From positions 1-43,495 of the forward strand of contig DATAOI010000082.1 of NCBI GenBank assembly GCA_036265815.1: a DNA stretch of 43,495 nt. Direction: 5' to 3'. The position numbers and the translations under genes are program-made. Shown in pieces: positions 6,649 through 26,267 of this stretch. The stretch comes from Gemmatimonadales bacterium (GTDB lineage: Bacteria > Gemmatimonadota > Gemmatimonadetes > Gemmatimonadales > GWC2-71-9). The notes under the pieces are model-generated. The model had not been told where the DNA came from. It was given only the letters and a program-made list of their open reading frames with translations, and made no database searches. How positions within the stretch are numbered: the first letter of the stretch is position 1; each line of letters opens with the position of its first letter.

Positions 6649-9321
6649 ATGGCCGAGCCGGTCCGAGGACTGGTAGAATCGCTGCGCGACCGCTACGCGA
6701 TCGAGCGCGAGCTCGGCCGCGGCGGCATGGCCACGGTCTACCTCGCCCGCGATCTCCGGCACGACCGGCCGGTGGCGCTCAAGGTTCTGCACGCTGACCT
6801 TTCCGCCTCGCTCGGGCCGGAGCGTTTCCTCCGCGAGATTCGGCTGGCCGCTCGCCTCCAGCACCCCCACATCCTGACCGTCCTCGACTCTGGCGAGGTC
6901 GCGGTGCCCGGAGCGCCGCCGCTCCTCTGGTTCACCATGCCCTTCGTCCGGGGCGAGAGCCTGCGCGACCGACTCACCCGCGAGAAGCAGCTCCCGGTGG
7001 AAGATGCGCTCCGCATCACGCGCGAGGCCGCCGACGCGCTGGCCTACGCGCACGAGGAAGGGATCATCCACCGGGATATCAAGCCCGAGAACATTCTGTT
7101 GGCTGGCACGCACGCACTGGTGGCGGACTTCGGGATCGCGCGGGCGCTGGGCGCGGGGGACGAGAAGCTCACCGAGACGGGGCTGGCCGTGGGCACACCG
7201 GCCTACATGAGCCCGGAGCAGGCGAGCGGCCAGCGCGATCTCGACCAGCGGACCGACATCTACTCCCTCGGCGTGGTGCTCTACGAGATGCTGGCGGGGG
7301 AGACGCCGTTCGCGGCCCCCACCGCGCAAGCCATGATCGCGCGGCGGTTCATGGAGACGCCAAGGCCGGTGCGGCTGCTGCGCGAGACAGTGCCGGAGCA
7401 GGTGGAGCAGGCGCTCCAGCGGGCGCTGGCGCGGACAGCGGCAGATCGGTTCGCCACGGCGGCCGAGCTCGCGCGCGCACTCGAGCCCGGGACCCGGCCG
7501 CTCGCCTCCGTGACGACAGGCGCCCCACCCATCCCACCACCGGCAACGTCCGCCACGGCCCCCGCGCGTTCGCCGCGCCGGGTCAACGCGGCCGTCACCT
7601 TCGTGCTTGGCCTCCTGGTCACCGCGACGATGGGGATGCTCGTCTGGCAACGGGCCCACCGGAGCGTTGAGGACACGGGCAAGGGTCCCAAGTTCGTCGC
7701 CGTTCTGCCGTTCGAGAATCTGGGCAGTCCCGACGAGGAGTATTTCGCGGACGGGGTGACCGATGCGGTTCGCGGCAAGCTCACGGGGCTGCCCGGCCTA
7801 GAGGTCATCGCGTCCAACAGCTCCAGCCAGTACAAGCATGCCAGCAAGACGCCGCAGCAGATCGGACAGGAGCTGGGGGTGCAGTATCTCGTCGTGGGCA
7901 AGGTTCGGTGGGAGAAGCGCGATGGGACGAACCGGGTGCAGGTGAGCCCGGAGCTTATCCAGGTCTCGACCGGCACGGCCCGGTGGCAGCAGCCGTTCAA
8001 CGCGGCGATCACGGACGTGTTCCAGGTCCAGGCCGACATCGCCGGCAATGTCGCGGAGGCGCTCAATGTGGCGCTCGGTGCCGGCGAGCGGCAGGCACTG
8101 GCCCAGAAGCCGACGCAGAGCATCGCGGCGTATGACGCGTTCTTGAAGGGCGAAGAGGCGTCCGCGAGGTTGGGCGAATCGGATCCAGGCAAGCTGCGGC
8201 AGGCGATCGGTTACTACGAGCGGGCAGTGGCGCTCGACTCCGGGTTCGTCGGGGCCTGGGCGGAGCTCTCGCGGGCGCACTCGGCCCTGTACTACAACGG
8301 ATCGGGCAATGGCGGAGATGCCGGCGCGGCGCTGGCGGGGGCACAACGCGCCGCTGCCGTCGGACCGGACGCCGGCGAGACGCATCTCGCGCTGGGTGAC
8401 TATTACAACCTGGTGGTCGGTGACTTCGCTCGGGCACTGGAGCAGTACGCGGGCGGCCTGCAACGCACACCCGCCAACTCCGACCTGCTGGCCGGCAGCG
8501 CGATCGTCGAGCAGAGCCTCGGACGAATGGACTCCGCGCTGGCGCTCTTTCAGCGTGCCGCGACCCTGGATCCGAGGTCGGTGTTTCCGATTCGCCGGAT
8601 GGCCCGCGCGCTGCTCTGGCTCAGGCGATATCCGGAGGCGCAGGAGGCGACCGAACGGGGGCTCGCCATCGCGCCGGACAATCTGAGCCTGCTGCAGAAC
8701 CGAGCCATGGTGGCCCTGGCTCAGGGGGACCTTGCCGGAGCCCGCGCCAGTCTGCAGAACGCCAAAGGCGTGGACCCGATTGGGCTCGTCGCCTTCATGG
8801 CCAACTACTGGGACACGTACTGGGCCCTAAGCGAGTCGCAGCAGGACCTGCTGCTCCGGTTGACCCCCGCGCCGTTCGACGACAACCGCGGGGCCTGGGG
8901 CCTGACGCTGGCCGGAACGTATAGGCTCCGCGGCCAGGAAGCTCGCATGCGAGCATACGCCGACACCGCCCGGCGAGCCTTCGAGGAGGCGCTGAAGCTC
9001 ACGCCTGACGATGCGCAGAGCCATCCGCTGCTCGGTGTCGCCCTGGCCTACCTGGGACGCAAAGCGGAGGCGATCAGGGAGGGTGAGCGGGGAGTGGCGC
9101 AGGCCCCGATCTCCAAGGACGCGTACGGCGGACCGTACAATCAGCTCCAGCTGGTGCGGATCTACATCCTCGTGGACGAGCCCGAGAAGGCGCTCGACCT
9201 GCTCGAGCCGCTGCTCCGGATCCCGTTCTATCTCTCGCCGGGGTGGCTCAAGATCGATCCGACATTCGACCCGCTGCGGAAGAATCCGCGGTTCATGAAG
9301 CTGGTGGCGGGGACCGCGTAG
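6649..9321 (+). CDS. Transmembrane Ser/Thr protein kinase with TolB-like and TPR domains
   Basis: 890 residues from ATG 6649; an in-frame GTG at 6616 would add 11 residues lying within the promoter-like region, so I prefer the ATG. Kinase domain 14-280 with GRGGMATVYLA, VALKVL, HRDIKPEN, DFGIA and GTPAYMSPEQ intact. Then a low-complexity linker, one membrane helix ('AVTFVLGLLVTATMGMLVW'), the TolB-like domain ('AVLPFENLGSPDEEYFADG', 'IGQELGVQYLVVGKV') and TPR-like repeats to the family ending 'RKNPRFMKLVAGTA'. It is clearly a paralogue of the kinase at 147. A 13-bp hairpin follows its stop. Confidence 0.93.
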   Translation: MAEPVRGLVESLRDRYAIERELGRGGMATVYLARDLRHDRPVALKVLHADLSASLGPERFLREIRLAARLQHPHILTVLDSGEVAVPGAPPLLWFTMPFVRGESLRDRLTREKQLPVEDALRITREAADALAYAHEEGIIHRDIKPENILLAGTHALVADFGIARALGAGDEKLTETGLAVGTPAYMSPEQASGQRDLDQRTDIYSLGVVLYEMLAGETPFAAPTAQAMIARRFMETPRPVRLLRETVPEQVEQALQRALARTAADRFATAAELARALEPGTRPLASVTTGAPPIPPPATSATAPARSPRRVNAAVTFVLGLLVTATMGMLVWQRAHRSVEDTGKGPKFVAVLPFENLGSPDEEYFADGVTDAVRGKLTGLPGLEVIASNSSSQYKHASKTPQQIGQELGVQYLVVGKVRWEKRDGTNRVQVSPELIQVSTGTARWQQPFNAAITDVFQVQADIAGNVAEALNVALGAGERQALAQKPTQSIAAYDAFLKGEEASARLGESDPGKLRQAIGYYERAVALDSGFVGAWAELSRAHSALYYNGSGNGGDAGAALAGAQRAAAVGPDAGETHLALGDYYNLVVGDFARALEQYAGGLQRTPANSDLLAGSAIVEQSLGRMDSALALFQRAATLDPRSVFPIRRMARALLWLRRYPEAQEATERGLAIAPDNLSLLQNRAMVALAQGDLAGARASLQNAKGVDPIGLVAFMANYWDTYWALSESQQDLLLRLTPAPFDDNRGAWGLTLAGTYRLRGQEARMRAYADTARRAFEEALKLTPDDAQSHPLLGVALAYLGRKAEAIREGERGVAQAPISKDAYGGPYNQLQLVRIYILVDEPEKALDLLEPLLRIPFYLSPGWLKIDPTFDPLRKNPRFMKLVAGTA

Positions 9322-19705: not shown

Positions 19706-20881
19706 ATGATCCACCTCCTCCGCAACGCCGAGTTATACGACCCGGAGCCGCGAGGCCGCGCCCACCTGCTGGTGGCGGGCGAACGCGTGGCCTGGGTCGG
19801 CACCGACGTGCCCGCCCTACCGGCATCGCTCGGGGTGACCGAGCACGACCTCGAAGGGCGCCGGGTGATTCCGGGCCTGATCGATGGCCACGTGCACCTG
19901 ACCGGTGGCGGCGGCGAGGCCGGACCCAACACCCGGGTGCCGCCGCTCGGGCTCAGCCGCATGACGTCGGGCGGAGTCACCACCGTGGTAGGACTGCTGG
20001 GCACCGATGACGCGGTGCGGACGACCGCGGAGCTGGTCACGGTGGCGCGCGGCCTCAACGCCGAAGGGCTCACGGCCTACTGCCTGACCGGCGGATATCA
20101 TCTCCCTCCGACGACGGTGACCGGCAGCGTCCGGCTCGATATCGTCCTCATCGATCTCATTCTCGGCGTGGGCGAGGTGGCGATCAGCGATCATCGCTCC
20201 AGCCAGCCCATCCTGGACGACCTGCTGCGCGTTGCCGGTGAGGCGCACGTCGGCGGGCTCATGGCGAACAAGGCGGGGATCGTCCACCTGCACGTGGGCA
20301 ACGGCGCACGCGGACTCGAGCTGGTGCGCCGAGCGCTCGGATGCAGCGAGCTGCCGGCCGGCGTGTTCAATCCGACCCACGTGAACCGGCGGAAGGCCCT
20401 CTTCGACGAGGCGCTGGCACTGGCGGAGCGCGGCTGCACCATCGACATGACCGCCTTCCCAGTCGAGGAGGGCGAGGATGCCTGGCCGGCCGCGGAGGCG
20501 CTGCTCAGATACCTGGACGCCGAGCTTCCGGCCAATCGAGTCACCGTGAGCTCGGACGGCGGTGGCTGCTTCCCGACGTTCGACGGTGAAGGCCGAGTGG
20601 TGACGTTCGACGTGGGGCGCCCCTCCGCGCTGGGAGACACGCTGACGGAGCTGCTGGCCGGCGGGCAGGCGCTCGAGCGGGTGCTGCCGGCGTTCACCAG
20701 CAATCCGGCCGGGCTGCTGCGGCTGCCCCGCAAGGGCCGGCTCACCGCCGGCTCGGACGCCGATCTGGTGGTGCTGGACCGGGAGCATCGGCCGGCGGAC
20801 GTCATGGCGCGGGGCCGCTGGCATGTACGTGACGGCACGCCGGCGGTCCGGGGGACGTTCGAGTGGCTCGAGGGCCGCTAG
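19706..20881 (+). CDS. iadA: Isoaspartyl dipeptidase
   Basis: 391 residues, the usual length. The enzyme hydrolyses beta-aspartyl dipeptides, including beta-Asp-Arg released from cyanophycin. The amidohydrolase metal site is visible: His62/His64 in 'GLIDGHVHLTGGGGE', His196 in 'VHLHVG', His225 in 'PTHVNR' and Asp284 in 'VSSDGGG'. In E. coli IadA the bridging ligand is a carboxylated lysine before 'AISDHRS'; here the equivalent position carries Glu157 ('GVGEVAISDHRSSQP'). 'GRLTAGSDADLVVLD' closes the barrel. First gene of a four-gene operon with cyanophycinase and two synthetase-like genes, which fixes its role as the last step of cyanophycin breakdown. Confidence 0.94.
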   Translation: MIHLLRNAELYDPEPRGRAHLLVAGERVAWVGTDVPALPASLGVTEHDLEGRRVIPGLIDGHVHLTGGGGEAGPNTRVPPLGLSRMTSGGVTTVVGLLGTDDAVRTTAELVTVARGLNAEGLTAYCLTGGYHLPPTTVTGSVRLDIVLIDLILGVGEVAISDHRSSQPILDDLLRVAGEAHVGGLMANKAGIVHLHVGNGARGLELVRRALGCSELPAGVFNPTHVNRRKALFDEALALAERGCTIDMTAFPVEEGEDAWPAAEALLRYLDAELPANRVTVSSDGGGCFPTFDGEGRVVTFDVGRPSALGDTLTELLAGGQALERVLPAFTSNPAGLLRLPRKGRLTAGSDADLVVLDREHRPADVMARGRWHVRDGTPAVRGTFEWLEGR

Positions 20882-21705
20882 CGTTGGAATCGCCGCGGGG
20901 CTACATCATTCCGGTCGGCGGGGCCGAGGAGAAGATTGGCGACGTCGAGATCCTGCGCCGGTTTTCCACTATCTGCGGCGGCGGCGACTGCCGGATCGCG
21001 ATCATCCCCACCGCATCGGAGCTGAGCGACACCGGGCTCCGCTACGAGCAGATCTTCACCAGCCTGGGCGTGGGGGAGGCGCGGGAGATCCCGATCGCCA
21101 GCCGGTCCGACTGCGAGCGCCGGGAGTGGCTCGACCTGCTGGATCAGGTGAACGGCGTCTTCCTGACCGGCGGGAACCAGCTCCGGCTGAGCACCATGAT
21201 CGGCGGCACCGAAGTAGCCAAGGCGTTGCGGCGGCGGAACCGCGAAGGGATGCACGTGGCCGGCACGTCGGCCGGGGCGGCGTTCCTCTGCGAGCACATG
21301 ATCGCGTTCGGAAAGGAAGGGTCGCTGCCCCGGTCCAAGATCGTCACCCTGGCGCCGGGGCTGGGACTCACCAACCGGGTGCTGATCGACCAGCATTTCC
21401 GCCAGCGGGACCGGCTGGGGCGGCTGCTCACGGCGCTGGCGTACAATCCGTTCGCCATCGGGATCGGGCTGGACGAGAACACCGCCGCGTTCATCGGTCC
21501 CGACGAGACACTCGAGGTCGTGGGTGGTGGGGCGCTCACCATCGTGGACCCCTCAGAGCTGGAGTTCTCCTCCATGGCGCGGGTCCGCAAGAACGATCCC
21601 ATCTGTCTGATCGGCCTTCGCTTGCACATTCTCGACCAGGGCTCGACGTTCAACCTGCAGACCCGGGCGGCGGCGGCGGCGCCGATCATCGCCAAGCGGG
21701 TCTAG
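20863..21705 (+). CDS. cphB: Cyanophycinase
   Basis: Serine exopeptidase that cuts cyanophycin into beta-Asp-Arg dipeptides. 280 residues from GTG 20863, overlapping iadA by 19 bases. TTG 20884 would give 273 residues and begins just after the iadA stop; it fits the family N-terminus ('PRGYIIPVGGAEEK') equally well. The nucleophile is Ser136 in 'HVAGTSAGAAFL'. 'IAIIPTAS', 'VFLTGGNQLRLS', 'LIDQHFRQRDRLGRLL', 'GIGLDENTAAF' and 'VVGGGALTIVD' are all cyanophycinase signatures. No signal peptide, so it acts on internal polymer. Followed by cphA after 17 bases. Confidence 0.95.
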   Translation: MARGPLALESPRGYIIPVGGAEEKIGDVEILRRFSTICGGGDCRIAIIPTASELSDTGLRYEQIFTSLGVGEAREIPIASRSDCERREWLDLLDQVNGVFLTGGNQLRLSTMIGGTEVAKALRRRNREGMHVAGTSAGAAFLCEHMIAFGKEGSLPRSKIVTLAPGLGLTNRVLIDQHFRQRDRLGRLLTALAYNPFAIGIGLDENTAAFIGPDETLEVVGGGALTIVDPSELEFSSMARVRKNDPICLIGLRLHILDQGSTFNLQTRAAAAAPIIAKRV

Positions 21706-21722: not shown

Positions 21723-24530
21723 ATGCGCATACTGGATAGAGCGGTCTACGTGGGCCCCAGCCTCTATGCCCACTTTCCGGTGATCCGGCTGGAGCTGGAT
21801 CTCGGCGAGCTGGAGGAATGGCCGTCGGGGAAGCTGGGGCCGGCGTTCACCGACGCGCTGGTGGCCGCCTTGCCGGGTCTGCAGGAGCACGGCTGCTCCT
21901 ACGGGGAGCCGGGCGGGTTCATCCGCCGGCTCACCGAGGGCGAAGGCACCTGGATGGGCCACATTCTGGAGCACGTGGCGATCGAGCTGCAGAACGTGGC
22001 CGGCGAGCCGGTGACGTTCGGAAAGACCCGGTCCCAGGGTGCCCCGGGCCACTACCACGTGGTCTACCAGTACGAGCAGGAGGACGTGGGCCTCGAGGCC
22101 GGACACCTCGGGATCACCCTGCTCCACTCGCTGCTGCCCCCCGCCCTCCGGCCCGAGGGCTCGGTCCCGGCGGGGTTCGACTTTCCGGCCGAGCGGGACG
22201 AGTTCATCCGCTTTGCCCAGCGGCGGGCGCTGGGTCCGAGCACCATGTCGCTGGTGCGGGCGGCGGAGGAGAGGCGGATCCCCTGGATCCGGCTCAACGA
22301 GCAGAGCCTCATCCAGTTCGGGCATGGACGCTTCCAGCAGCGGATCCAAGCCACCGTCACCAGCCGTACGCCGCACATCGCCGTGGAGCTCGCCTCCGAC
22401 AAGGAGGAGACCAACCGGCTGCTGGCCAACCTTGGCCTGCCGGTGCCGCGCCAGCGGCTGGTGCAGCGGGTGAACGACGCCGTATCCGCGGCGGAGCAGA
22501 TCGGCTACCCGGTGGTGGTGAAGCCGTACAACGCCAATCACGGCCGGGGGATCTCGATCCACCTGACCACCGAGACCCAGGTGCGCGACGCGTTCGAGCT
22601 GGCGCGGGAGCACAGCCGCAGCGTGATCGTGGAGAGCTTCATCACCGGCGAGGACCACCGGATGCTGGTGATCAACGGCGAGCTGGTGGCGGTCTCCAAG
22701 CGGGTGCCGGGACACGTGGTGGGCGATGGGGTGCACACGGTCGAAGAGCTGGTAGAGGAGGTGAACCGCGACCCGCGCCGCGGCATCGGCCACGAGAAGG
22801 TGCTCACCCGGCTGGTGTTCGACCACCAGGCAGACACCCTGCTCGCCGGGCGAGGCTATACCCGCGAGACGGTGCCCGCCGATGGTGAGCGGGTCTTTCT
22901 CCGGTCGACCGGCAACCTCTCCACCGGCGGGACGGCCACCGATCTCACCGACGTGGTCCATCCCGACAACATCGGGATGGCGGTCCGCGCCGTCCGGGCC
23001 ATCGGGCTCGACGTTGGCGGGGTGGACTTCCTCACCAGCGACATCACCGAATCGTACAAGGACGTGGGCGGCGCGATCTGCGAGGTGAATGCGGCGCCCG
23101 GCTTCCGCATGCACATGGCGCCGAGCGAGGGACGGCCGCGCGACGTGGCGGGACCGGTGATGGACATGCTGTTCCCGCCGGGGACGCCGAGCCGGATCCC
23201 CATCGCGGCGGTGACGGGGACCAACGGCAAGACCACCACCGCCAGGATGCTGGCCCACATCCAGAAGCTGGCGGGCCACCACGTGGGACTCACCTCGACC
23301 GACGGGGTGTACATCGACGGGCAGCGCACCGTCGCCGGCGACATGACCGGCCCGGTGGCCACCCGCATGGTGCTGAGCGATCCGGGCGTCGACGTGGCGG
23401 TGCTGGAGATCGCCCGGGGCGGGCTGCTGCGTGCCGGCATGGGGGTGCGGCACTGCGACGTGGGTGCCGTGCTCAACGTCAAGTCCGACCACCTGGGACT
23501 CCGTGGAGTGGGCACGCTGGCGGAGCTGGCCAAGGTCAAGCGGATCGTGGTGGAAGTGGCGCGGGACACCGCCATCCTCAATGCCGACGACCCGCTCTGT
23601 CTGGCGATGGCGGACTACACCGAGGCGAAGCACCTCTGCTACGTGACCATGGACCCCACCCACGGCCTGGTGGGCGAGCACATCAAGGCGGGCGGCCGGG
23701 GCGTGGTGCGTGAGTCGGGCATCAAGGGCGAGATGATCACCATCTACGACCGCGGCGCGCACATCCCGCTCCTGTGGACCCATCTGATCCCGGCCACACT
23801 GGAGGGCCGCGCCCTGCACAACGTGCAGAACGCGATGTTCGCGGCCGCGATGGCCTTCAGCATGGGACTCAAGCTGGAGGACATCCGGCACGGCCTCCGG
23901 ACGTTCGATACCACGTTCTTCCAGGCCCCCGGCCGGATGAATATCTTCGACGAGCACCCGTTCAAGGTGATCCTGGATTACGGGCACAACGCCGCCGCGG
24001 TGGAGGTGATGTGCCAGCTGGTGTCGAGGCTCGAGGTGAGCGGACAGCGGATCTGCGTGCTGGCAGCGCCGGGCGACCGACGGGACGAGGACATCGTGGA
24101 GGTCGGACGGATCGCCGCGGGACACTTCGATCGCTACATCGTCCGCCGGGACGACCATCTGCGGGGCCGGGGACCGGAAGAGGTGCCCCACCTGCTGCGG
24201 GACACGCTGCTCCAGGCCGGGGTTGCCGCCGAGCGGATCGCGGTGATCCCCGACGAGCAGGCCGCGATCGACGCCGCGCTCCGCGAGGCTCAGCCCGGCG
24301 ACCTGGTACTGATTTTCGCCGATGCCGTCACCCGGAGCTGGAAGCAGGTGATCCAGTTCCGCCCCGAGGCACCCAACCGGCCGATCGACCGGACCAGGGC
24401 GGCGGTGGCCGAGCCGGTGGCGGTCCCCGCGGCTCCGAGCCCGGTGCCCGCACCGGGCGAAGATGGCCGGCGGGAGTTCGTCCGCGACGGCCGGGGAGTG
24501 CGGCTCGCGCGCGAGGAGCAGGCGGACTGA
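21723..24530 (+). CDS. cphA: Cyanophycin synthetase
   Basis: 935 residues, slightly longer than the usual 870-900 because of a Pro/Ala-rich, charged C-terminal tail of about 50 residues. It builds the Asp backbone with Arg side chains using ATP. Three parts are seen: an N-terminal domain (1-165), an ATP-grasp domain (about 220-475: 'DKEETNRLLANLGLPVP', 'YPVVVKPYNANHGRG', 'GEDHRMLVINGELVAVSKR', 'CEVNAAPGF') and a Mur-ligase domain (about 490-880: P-loop 'GTNGKTTTARML' near 495, 'LEIARGGLLRAG', 'SDHLGLRG', 'LNADDPLCL', 'HNVQNAMFAAAMAF', 'DYGHNAAAVEVM'). Both ligase sites look complete. Third gene of the operon. Confidence 0.96.
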   Translation: MRILDRAVYVGPSLYAHFPVIRLELDLGELEEWPSGKLGPAFTDALVAALPGLQEHGCSYGEPGGFIRRLTEGEGTWMGHILEHVAIELQNVAGEPVTFGKTRSQGAPGHYHVVYQYEQEDVGLEAGHLGITLLHSLLPPALRPEGSVPAGFDFPAERDEFIRFAQRRALGPSTMSLVRAAEERRIPWIRLNEQSLIQFGHGRFQQRIQATVTSRTPHIAVELASDKEETNRLLANLGLPVPRQRLVQRVNDAVSAAEQIGYPVVVKPYNANHGRGISIHLTTETQVRDAFELAREHSRSVIVESFITGEDHRMLVINGELVAVSKRVPGHVVGDGVHTVEELVEEVNRDPRRGIGHEKVLTRLVFDHQADTLLAGRGYTRETVPADGERVFLRSTGNLSTGGTATDLTDVVHPDNIGMAVRAVRAIGLDVGGVDFLTSDITESYKDVGGAICEVNAAPGFRMHMAPSEGRPRDVAGPVMDMLFPPGTPSRIPIAAVTGTNGKTTTARMLAHIQKLAGHHVGLTSTDGVYIDGQRTVAGDMTGPVATRMVLSDPGVDVAVLEIARGGLLRAGMGVRHCDVGAVLNVKSDHLGLRGVGTLAELAKVKRIVVEVARDTAILNADDPLCLAMADYTEAKHLCYVTMDPTHGLVGEHIKAGGRGVVRESGIKGEMITIYDRGAHIPLLWTHLIPATLEGRALHNVQNAMFAAAMAFSMGLKLEDIRHGLRTFDTTFFQAPGRMNIFDEHPFKVILDYGHNAAAVEVMCQLVSRLEVSGQRICVLAAPGDRRDEDIVEVGRIAAGHFDRYIVRRDDHLRGRGPEEVPHLLRDTLLQAGVAAERIAVIPDEQAAIDAALREAQPGDLVLIFADAVTRSWKQVIQFRPEAPNRPIDRTRAAVAEPVAVPAAPSPVPAPGEDGRREFVRDGRGVRLAREEQAD

Positions 24531-24548: not shown

Positions 24549-26267
24549 ATGACCTTCCTCGATTCGCGCAGACTCACCGGACCGGGACTGCTCCTCGATG
24601 GTCCCGGCGCCATTCTCGAAATTCAACTGGATGACCCGCAGCGTTCCCTCGCCCTGGCTGCCTGGCGACGGGCGGCGCGGCGCATGCTCGATGCCGTCGG
24701 ATGGTCGGGCGAAACGCTCGCGACCAGGATCTTCGCCGGAGGCGCGAGTCTCGCGCTGAGCGCCCCGGCTGACGCGCTGTACGCCGCCACCGAGGTGAAC
24801 GAGTGGGCCTGGGCGGCAGCAGAGGCGGAAATTCAGGGCGGCCCCGAGCCGGACTTCGTCGCAGCGGCGGATCGTATCCGCGCGGCCATCCGGGAGGAGC
24901 AGTGTCCCGCGCTGCTCGCCCTGCGCGACGCGGCACGGGCCCGCGGTCTCACGTTCCTGAGCGACGAGGAGGGCGTGTCGGTGGGCGCAGGCACCGGCGC
25001 GCTGGTCTGGCCGCTCGATCGCCTGCCGGAACCCGGAGCGGTGGATTGGGATCGGGTGCACGAGATTCCCACTGCCCTGGTCACCGGCTCCAACGGAAAA
25101 ACCACCGTAGTGCGGCTGCTCGCGGCCATGGTGGCTGAGACCGGGCAGATCACCGGAACCACCTCGACCGACGCGGTGACCGTGGGCCGCGTGACGATCG
25201 CCCAAGGGGACTATTCCGGGCCGGAAGGTGCCCGGATGCTGCTGCGCCGGCCGGAAGTGGAGGCGGCCGTCCTGGAGACCGCGCGGGGCGGACTGCTTCG
25301 TCGCGGGCTCACGGTCGAGCGGGCCGACGTGGCGGTGGTGACCAACATCGCGAGCGACCATCTCGGCGAGTTCGGGGTGCAGGACCTCGGCGCCCTGGCG
25401 GAGACCAAGCTGCTGGTGACTCGCGCGGTGGGGCCGGAAGGCGGGGTGGTGCTCAACGCCGACGATCCGGTGCTGGTCGTCGGCGCGGCGACTGTGCAGG
25501 CGCCGGTCATCTGGTTCTCGCTCGAGCCCGACCGACCCACGTTACTGAGGCACATTCGGGCCGGCGGCGCCGCCGCGGTGTGCGCCGGCGACGACCTGCT
25601 GCTCGCCACGGGTGACACGCTGTATGTGGTCGGGGCGATCTCGGACCTGCCGATGGCGCAGGGCGGGGCCGCCAGACACAACGTCGCCAACGCGCTCGCG
25701 GCGATGGCGGCCGCGCAGGTGCTGGGTGTTCCGGTGGAGGTGATGGGGCGGGTCCTGCGGCGCTTCGGGGGCAACGCCGAGGACAATCCGGGACGAGCCA
25801 ACGTGATGGAGCTGGGTGGTGTAGTGGTGGTGATCGATTTCGCCCACAATCCGCATGGTGTGGCCGCGCTGGTCCGGATGGCGGCCTCGTTTCCGGCACG
25901 CCGCCGCCTGCTGCTGCTGGGTCAGGCGGGCGACCGGAGCGATGCGGACCTGAGCGGGCTGGCCAGGGCAGCCGTGGCGTTCGAGCCCGACCGGATCGTG
26001 CTCAAGGAGATGGAGCACTACCGGCGGGGCCGGCAGCCAGGCGAGGTGCCCCGGATTCTGGCGGATGAGCTTCAGCAGCTGGGCTTTCCGGCCGGCGCCA
26101 TCGCCCAGGCGGGCAGCGAGCTGGACGGCGTGCGCGAGGCTTTGAGCTGGGCGCGTGCCGGAGATCTGCTGCTGCTCACGGTGCATGAAGACCGAGCAGC
26201 GGTGGTCGGTCTGCTGGAGCGGCTGCGGGCGGAGGGGTGGCGGGCGGGGGAGGCCGTTCCGGGTTAG
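24549..26267 (+). CDS. Mur-ligase-only paralogue of cyanophycin synthetase
   Basis: 572 residues, 18 bases after cphA. The N-terminal 170 residues ('FLDSRRLTGPGLLLDGPGA') do not contain an ATP-grasp domain. From residue 175 a Mur-ligase domain matches that of CphA in every signature: P-loop 'VTGSNGKTTVVRLL', 'TGTTSTDAVTVG', 'LETARGGLLRRG', 'NIASDHLGEFG', 'LNADDPVLVVG', 'HNVANALAAMAAA', 'DFAHNPHGVAALV' and 'MEHYRRGRQPGEVPRIL'. All nucleotide-binding residues look kept, so it is probably active. Known CphA2 enzymes keep ATP-grasp instead, so this is the opposite architecture. A role adding Arg, or another amino acid, to the polymer is an inference. It ends in a 4-base convergent overlap with the methyltransferase gene. 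Confidence 0.88.
   Translation: MTFLDSRRLTGPGLLLDGPGAILEIQLDDPQRSLALAAWRRAARRMLDAVGWSGETLATRIFAGGASLALSAPADALYAATEVNEWAWAAAEAEIQGGPEPDFVAAADRIRAAIREEQCPALLALRDAARARGLTFLSDEEGVSVGAGTGALVWPLDRLPEPGAVDWDRVHEIPTALVTGSNGKTTVVRLLAAMVAETGQITGTTSTDAVTVGRVTIAQGDYSGPEGARMLLRRPEVEAAVLETARGGLLRRGLTVERADVAVVTNIASDHLGEFGVQDLGALAETKLLVTRAVGPEGGVVLNADDPVLVVGAATVQAPVIWFSLEPDRPTLLRHIRAGGAAAVCAGDDLLLATGDTLYVVGAISDLPMAQGGAARHNVANALAAMAAAQVLGVPVEVMGRVLRRFGGNAEDNPGRANVMELGGVVVVIDFAHNPHGVAALVRMAASFPARRRLLLLGQAGDRSDADLSGLARAAVAFEPDRIVLKEMEHYRRGRQPGEVPRILADELQQLGFPAGAIAQAGSELDGVREALSWARAGDLLLLTVHEDRAAVVGLLERLRAEGWRAGEAVPG

Follow-up and report, generated by a model that had tools for sequence, protein, structure and literature searches.

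Cyanophycin synthetases and related ligases

Cyanophycin is a nitrogen-storage polymer of industrial interest that is built by cyanophycin synthetase (CphA). In the characterized species it is made by CphA alone, and that enzyme by itself is thought to determine what the polymer is composed of.

Several features of the known synthetases are relevant here. In CphA1, an HxxEH motif makes primers (PMC9262961), and activity of the M domain requires residues D585 and H586 in SuCphA1 (PMC9262961) and the P-loop Lys in TeCphA1 (PMC9427784). CphA2 (PDB 7ta5 and 8fxh) is a reduced CphA paralogue that has one active site and repolymerizes beta-Asp-Arg (PMC9262961 and PMC10206079). We compared these systems with MurX (name given here), a 572-aa product of an ATG open reading frame at positions 24549–26267 (forward strand) of the window, that is, the whole 43,495-nt stretch analysed, from a 4.6 Mb genome of Gemmatimonadota kinship; among the matches listed, its closest named relatives are Gemmatimonadales MAGs. 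MurX has in common with CphA1 (TIGR02068; PDB 7lg5, 7lgq, 7wac, 7lgm and 7lgn) the linker segments, the M domain and the catalytic residues, and the predicted fold of its N-terminal part resembles the CphA1 N domain. It differs in lacking the ATP-grasp core and the zinc motif, in its altered donor loop and in a His that replaces Asp/Glu; it also falls into a separate clade (about 37% identity in the M domain), and the two genes lie in one operon. CphA2 resembles MurX as a reduced paralogue with one synthetic site and a matching N-terminal fold, but the reduction is opposite: CphA2 retains ATP-grasp, whereas MurX retains only the Mur site, so that the preliminary description aptly called MurX the reverse of CphA2.

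A plasmid protein of Legionella adelaidensis (WP_058462805.1, 622 aa; locus L151, 5323–7191) has also had its G domain removed. It matches the CphA profile over positions 1–210 and then 480–877, so the same type of deletion is visible in plain sequence. Unlike in MurX, the zinc motif HxxEH is retained and the donor loop resembles that of CphA; its Mur domain is full. The gene lies beside a cyanophycinase and an isoaspartyl peptidase gene, and cphA is absent within 6 kb.

RefSeq labels MurX only as a 'Mur ligase family protein'. The accessible part of a gene-cluster survey of cyanophycin genes (PMC10206079) makes no mention of it, and our searches of the open literature turned up no account of it, though the CphA1-structure paper (Nat Chem Biol 2021) and the dipeptide-hydrolase paper (PNAS 2023) may mention it. 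Within that literature, the view of MurX as an undescribed enzyme is upheld. The conservation of a Mur-only ligase with a gene of its own suggests that many non-cyanobacterial cyanophycin systems may include an extra enzymatic step.

Operon structure and co-occurrence with cphA

MurX is the last gene of an operon with the order iadA-cphB-cphA-MurX, all on the forward strand, in which neighbours overlap or are spaced by 17–18 nt. The other genes encode an isoaspartyl dipeptidase (iadA, 19706–20881; TIGR01975, 394 bits against a cut-off of 331), a cyanophycinase (cphB, 20863–21705; TIGR02069, 256 bits, cut-off 126.6) and a 935-aa cyanophycin synthetase 1 (cphA, 21723–24530; TIGR02068, 1131 bits, cut-off 850). 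The cphA product matches PF18921, RimK and the Mur M and C families, with the N, G and M domains all present. MurX is indeed the fourth gene, as described earlier, directly 3' of the end of cphA at 24530 and in a shared operon with cphB and iadA.

This arrangement is widespread. At least 80 MurX relatives occur in Gemmatimonadota, Acidobacteriota, Planctomycetota and three classes of Pseudomonadota (i.e. Alpha-, Beta- and Gammaproteobacteria), and they form a single clade in the M-domain tree (support 99/100). Among the matches listed, cphA lies directly upstream in 78 of 80 loci; the exceptions are a locus that begins at MurX (L044) and one whose nearest cphA genes are on the opposite strand (L031). 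Spacing was measured at 69 loci, and in 68 of these the two genes share a strand, with MurX starting a median of ~14 nt after the cphA stop. A CphA-MurX fusion, suspected from long open frames, was rejected: cphA lies in another frame.

We then surveyed four genome samples with the MurX N-terminal profile and, for CphA, PF18921; the samples are named, by our own reading, after the orders of the loci used as their centres, and the taxon survey is itself a sample. Genomes with both genes, MurX only, CphA only and neither number 43/1/27/227 in Gemmatimonadota, 71/1/8/120 in Xanthomonadales, 7/1/68/124 in Burkholderiales and 12/0/3/182 in Rhodobacterales (P = 4e-32, 9e-44, 5e-3 and 9e-17, respectively). 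Overall, cphA accompanies MurX in 133 of 136 MurX genomes, which rejects a lack of co-occurrence, the outcome that the preliminary description had named as counting against its proposal. None of the three MurX-only genomes is a convincing counter-example. One (G485) has the rest of a cphA beside MurX at a contig edge, and another (G541) gives a partial, marginal match. In the third (G042) MurX and cphB are both broken and cphA is undetectable; a tblastn search with the CphA of the window returned Mur-domain matches only, inside the broken MurX, and the cphA-sized gap holds other sequence. Among the CphA-only Xanthomonadales, cphA is truncated by the contig end in five of eight. In two genomes (G345 and G465) MurX and cphA are on separate contigs.

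Some loci contain further genes. In one genome (G005; L113, 5541–8195) a divergent CphA gene lies on the opposite strand between a type I cphA and MurX. In seven Rhodobacteraceae loci (L034–L036, L038, L039, L044 and L068) a gene resembling isoaspartyl aminopeptidase, by its motif as judged by eye, is found ~1.3 kb downstream of MurX on the opposite strand.

Domain architecture of MurX

The only Pfam domains in MurX are Mur_ligase_M (residues 178–389; 25080–25715, forward strand; PF08245, 79 bits, cut-off 24) and Mur_ligase_C, the lid domain (residues 415–543; 25791–26177, forward strand; PF02875, 48 bits, cut-off 28.4), which places it in the Mur ligase superfamily. A Pfam search of the 572 residues returned no ATP-grasp domain, in agreement with the preliminary description, and MurX is therefore not a CphA2, its remaining site being the Mur site. 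Its best NCBIfam match is to the Mur part of TIGR02068 (profile positions 477–858). The score of 359 bits lies well below the cut-off of 850, so by whole-protein score MurX is not cyanophycin synthetase 1, but its M domain is of CphA type with the CphA catalytic residues. Nor is it MurE, for which it scores 77.7 bits against a cut-off of 257.3.

The N-terminus, of about 170 residues, was earlier considered unrelated to CphA. It has no match to PF18921 (the CphA N domain) or to any other Pfam domain, yet its predicted fold is that of CphA N. An AlphaFold model of the whole protein (55 sequences aligned; pLDDT 95.1, pTM 0.93) aligns in VIA-align from residue 1 to 562 with CphA1 (7lgq_A, chain residues 1–872) over 553 residues (Z 36.5, 30% identity). 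The next-best fold is MurE (2wtz_D, Z 26.8), which shares the Mur ligase fold and chemistry; MurX differs from it in lacking the DNPR loop, in having CphA-specific Arg/Asp residues and in an N-terminal part that matches CphA. Residues 1–166 modelled alone (pLDDT 95.4) recover only CphA1 and CphA2 at significance in Foldseek: these make up the top 14 chains (7lgn_A, E 1.2e-6), and the first unrelated chain has E 1.7e-2. VIA places 164 of the 166 residues on CphA residues 1–480 (to chain residue 477/480; Z 12.7). Sequence-only tests are weak but in the same register: a profile-profile alignment pairs MurX 1–150 with CphA 1–204 (single-comparison P ~7e-4), and hhalign pairs residues 101–149 with CphA 152–203 (P ~1e-3 for the N-terminus). 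The homology of the N-terminus thus rests on predicted structure, which argues against an unrelated domain, and that part of the preliminary description is revised.

Because the predicted fold spans both ends of CphA, MurX appears to be a CphA from which the ATP-grasp core (roughly residues 205–465) has been cut out. The N-terminal part would comprise (i) a reduced CphA N domain (residues 1–98; 24549–24842), (ii) a segment that corresponds to where the G domain of CphA begins (residues 99–149; 24843–24995; CphA about 152–203, by hhalign) and (iii) a linker corresponding to CphA about 465–480 in the VIA alignment, with approximate boundaries (residues 150–171; 24996–25061), all on the forward strand. 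In the model a short loop occupies the place of the CphA zinc-site helix; an HxxEH or HExxH motif occurs in 1 of 86 MurX sequences, while HxxEH is present in all 75 cognate CphA. The zinc-hydrolase (endo-cyanophycinase) helix of the N domain is, on the model, lost in MurX.

In two MurX proteins (Luteimonas panaciterrae, L093, and Pseudoxanthomonas sp. CF125, L096) an in-frame insertion of ~175–190 residues (about 8261–8832) separates the N domain from the linker; when tested for L093, it matched a DUF559 domain (1.8e-30).

Catalytic site and presumed donor side

We compared residues in 86 MurX relatives and 91 CphA (75 type I and 16 type II). The catalytic positions are K184 in the P-loop (TGSNGKTT, within 25083–25109), E243, D270-H271, K287, R416, D430 and H433. 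All are invariant in both sets, at a mean pairwise identity of 47% for MurX and 71% for cognate CphA. They include the equivalents of TeCphA1 K499 and E558 and of SuCphA1 D585 and H586 (86 of 86), bearing out the earlier statement that the Mur-ligase motifs are all kept. All MurX also share several CphA-type residues that are absent from MurE (i.e. D221, R246, R251, N434 and R495), so that the acceptor is probably the same as that of CphA, or cyanophycin-like.

The presumed donor side is different. In an alignment that includes MurE and both types of CphA, the presumed donor loop of MurX (KEMEHYRRGR, residues 486–495; 26004–26033, forward strand) is one residue longer than that of CphA, and this alignment is ambiguous by one residue. 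The consensus is K[ED][IML]xx[YF]LRGR in MurX, versus RRDDxLRGR or KEDxDxRGR in CphA. His546 (26184–26186, forward strand) aligns with a residue that is acidic in 90 of 91 CphA (74 Asp and 1 Leu in type I; 14 Asp and 2 Glu in type II), is Glu in the solved CphA1 structures and is never acidic in MurX (73 His, 10 Leu, 2 Gln and 1 Phe). By analogy with the MurE fold, we infer that both positions would contact the incoming amino acid. Since the acidic donor-site residue is replaced, a donor other than Arg, as suggested by the earlier reader, is plausible, at about one chance in three. No conserved neighbour within 8 kb of the MurX loci names the donor amino acid.

Possible roles of MurX

The most economical account is that MurX could act with CphA as a ligase on the terminal Asp of cyanophycin. 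We favour, at a probability of roughly 0.45, an active ATP-dependent side-chain ligase that works beside CphA and may well use a donor other than Arg, or one in addition to it. In this view MurX is a paralogue of cyanophycin synthetase that diverged long ago; the G domain that adds Asp (the ATP-grasp core) was lost together with the zinc endo-cyanophycinase helix, and the frame of the N domain and the whole Mur ligase were retained. It would then work in trans with CphA at the chain-terminal Asp of cyanophycin, and the polymer would carry side chains of a second kind. More tentatively, bacteria of several phyla may store a two-letter cyanophycin, in which CphA adds Arg and MurX, as the second side-chain ligase, adds another residue. 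If the donor is not Arg, MurX would be a genetic handle on polymer chemistry. As CphA suffices in the characterized species, MurX could also be a minor accessory.

The intact catalytic site, the CphA-type acceptor residues and the strict pairing with cphA would also suit an extra Arg ligase in trans, one that completes Asp residues left by CphA without Arg or speeds the second half-reaction, and the acidic residue of MurX at position 487 (E/D) could stand in for the lost one and rebuild an Arg pocket. We consider this unlikely, however, given that MurX has His, Leu or Gln in place of the acidic residue common to both CphA types and the solved CphA1s, and that its donor loop is longer by one residue and has gained a hydrophobic position. 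Less likely still is a role in turnover alongside CphB and IadA, in which free Asp or beta-Asp-Arg would receive the amino acid that MurX adds, to give dipeptides or primers. Such a role would fit the presence in the operon of genes for degradation (cphB with iadA or an iaaA-like gene) and the promiscuity of IadA for beta-aspartyl dipeptides (PMC10206079). Against it, MurX keeps the N-domain frame that holds the polymer in CphA (PMC9262961), and primers should not be missing where the HxxEH site is present in every cognate CphA. It seems improbable that MurX is a subunit of the CphA oligomer with a structural or regulatory role and no catalysis. In other bacteria CphA does stand beside paralogues with a degenerate M domain, and subunit roles may therefore exist, but those partners have mostly lost the P-loop, unlike MurX, whose catalytic residues are invariant over 86 sequences at 47% identity. 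An inert subunit, and with it the purely regulatory role entertained in the preliminary description, is thus unlikely.

Other reduced CphA partners

CphA without MurX is often accompanied by another kind of reduced paralogue. Among Gemmatimonadota whose CphA is of type II we found ten partners of 307–402 aa (e.g. L115, 7255–8322; L117, 8372–9469; L121, 7555–8622), usually directly 3' of cphA. All ten carry HxxEH and have no recognizable ATP-grasp or intact Mur domain; by eye, they seem to end in what is left of a degenerate Mur domain. Such a partner may be a hydrolase dedicated to making primers, and so the opposite case to MurX. In Burkholderiales, a CphA' of ~730 residues, with HxxEH and ATP-grasp but with the Mur P-loop mostly lost, stands in tandem with a CphA that has a weak N domain (L142–L147; L137, 4600–9368). 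The tandem, which also occurs in one Xanthomonadales genome (G463), was not seen in the MurX genomes of the order.

The reduced partners thus retain different sites, and MurX alone among those seen keeps only ligase chemistry. Evolution seems to have dismantled CphA along several routes, with a different active site lost in each, and such forms bear on how the three sites of CphA cooperate. A second CphA paralogue with a shortened ATP-grasp, annotated as two overlapping open reading frames, is present on a plasmid of Deinococcus sp. KNUC1210 (L150, 4687–7186), where it adjoins cphA, an isoaspartyl peptidase gene and a cyanophycinase gene.
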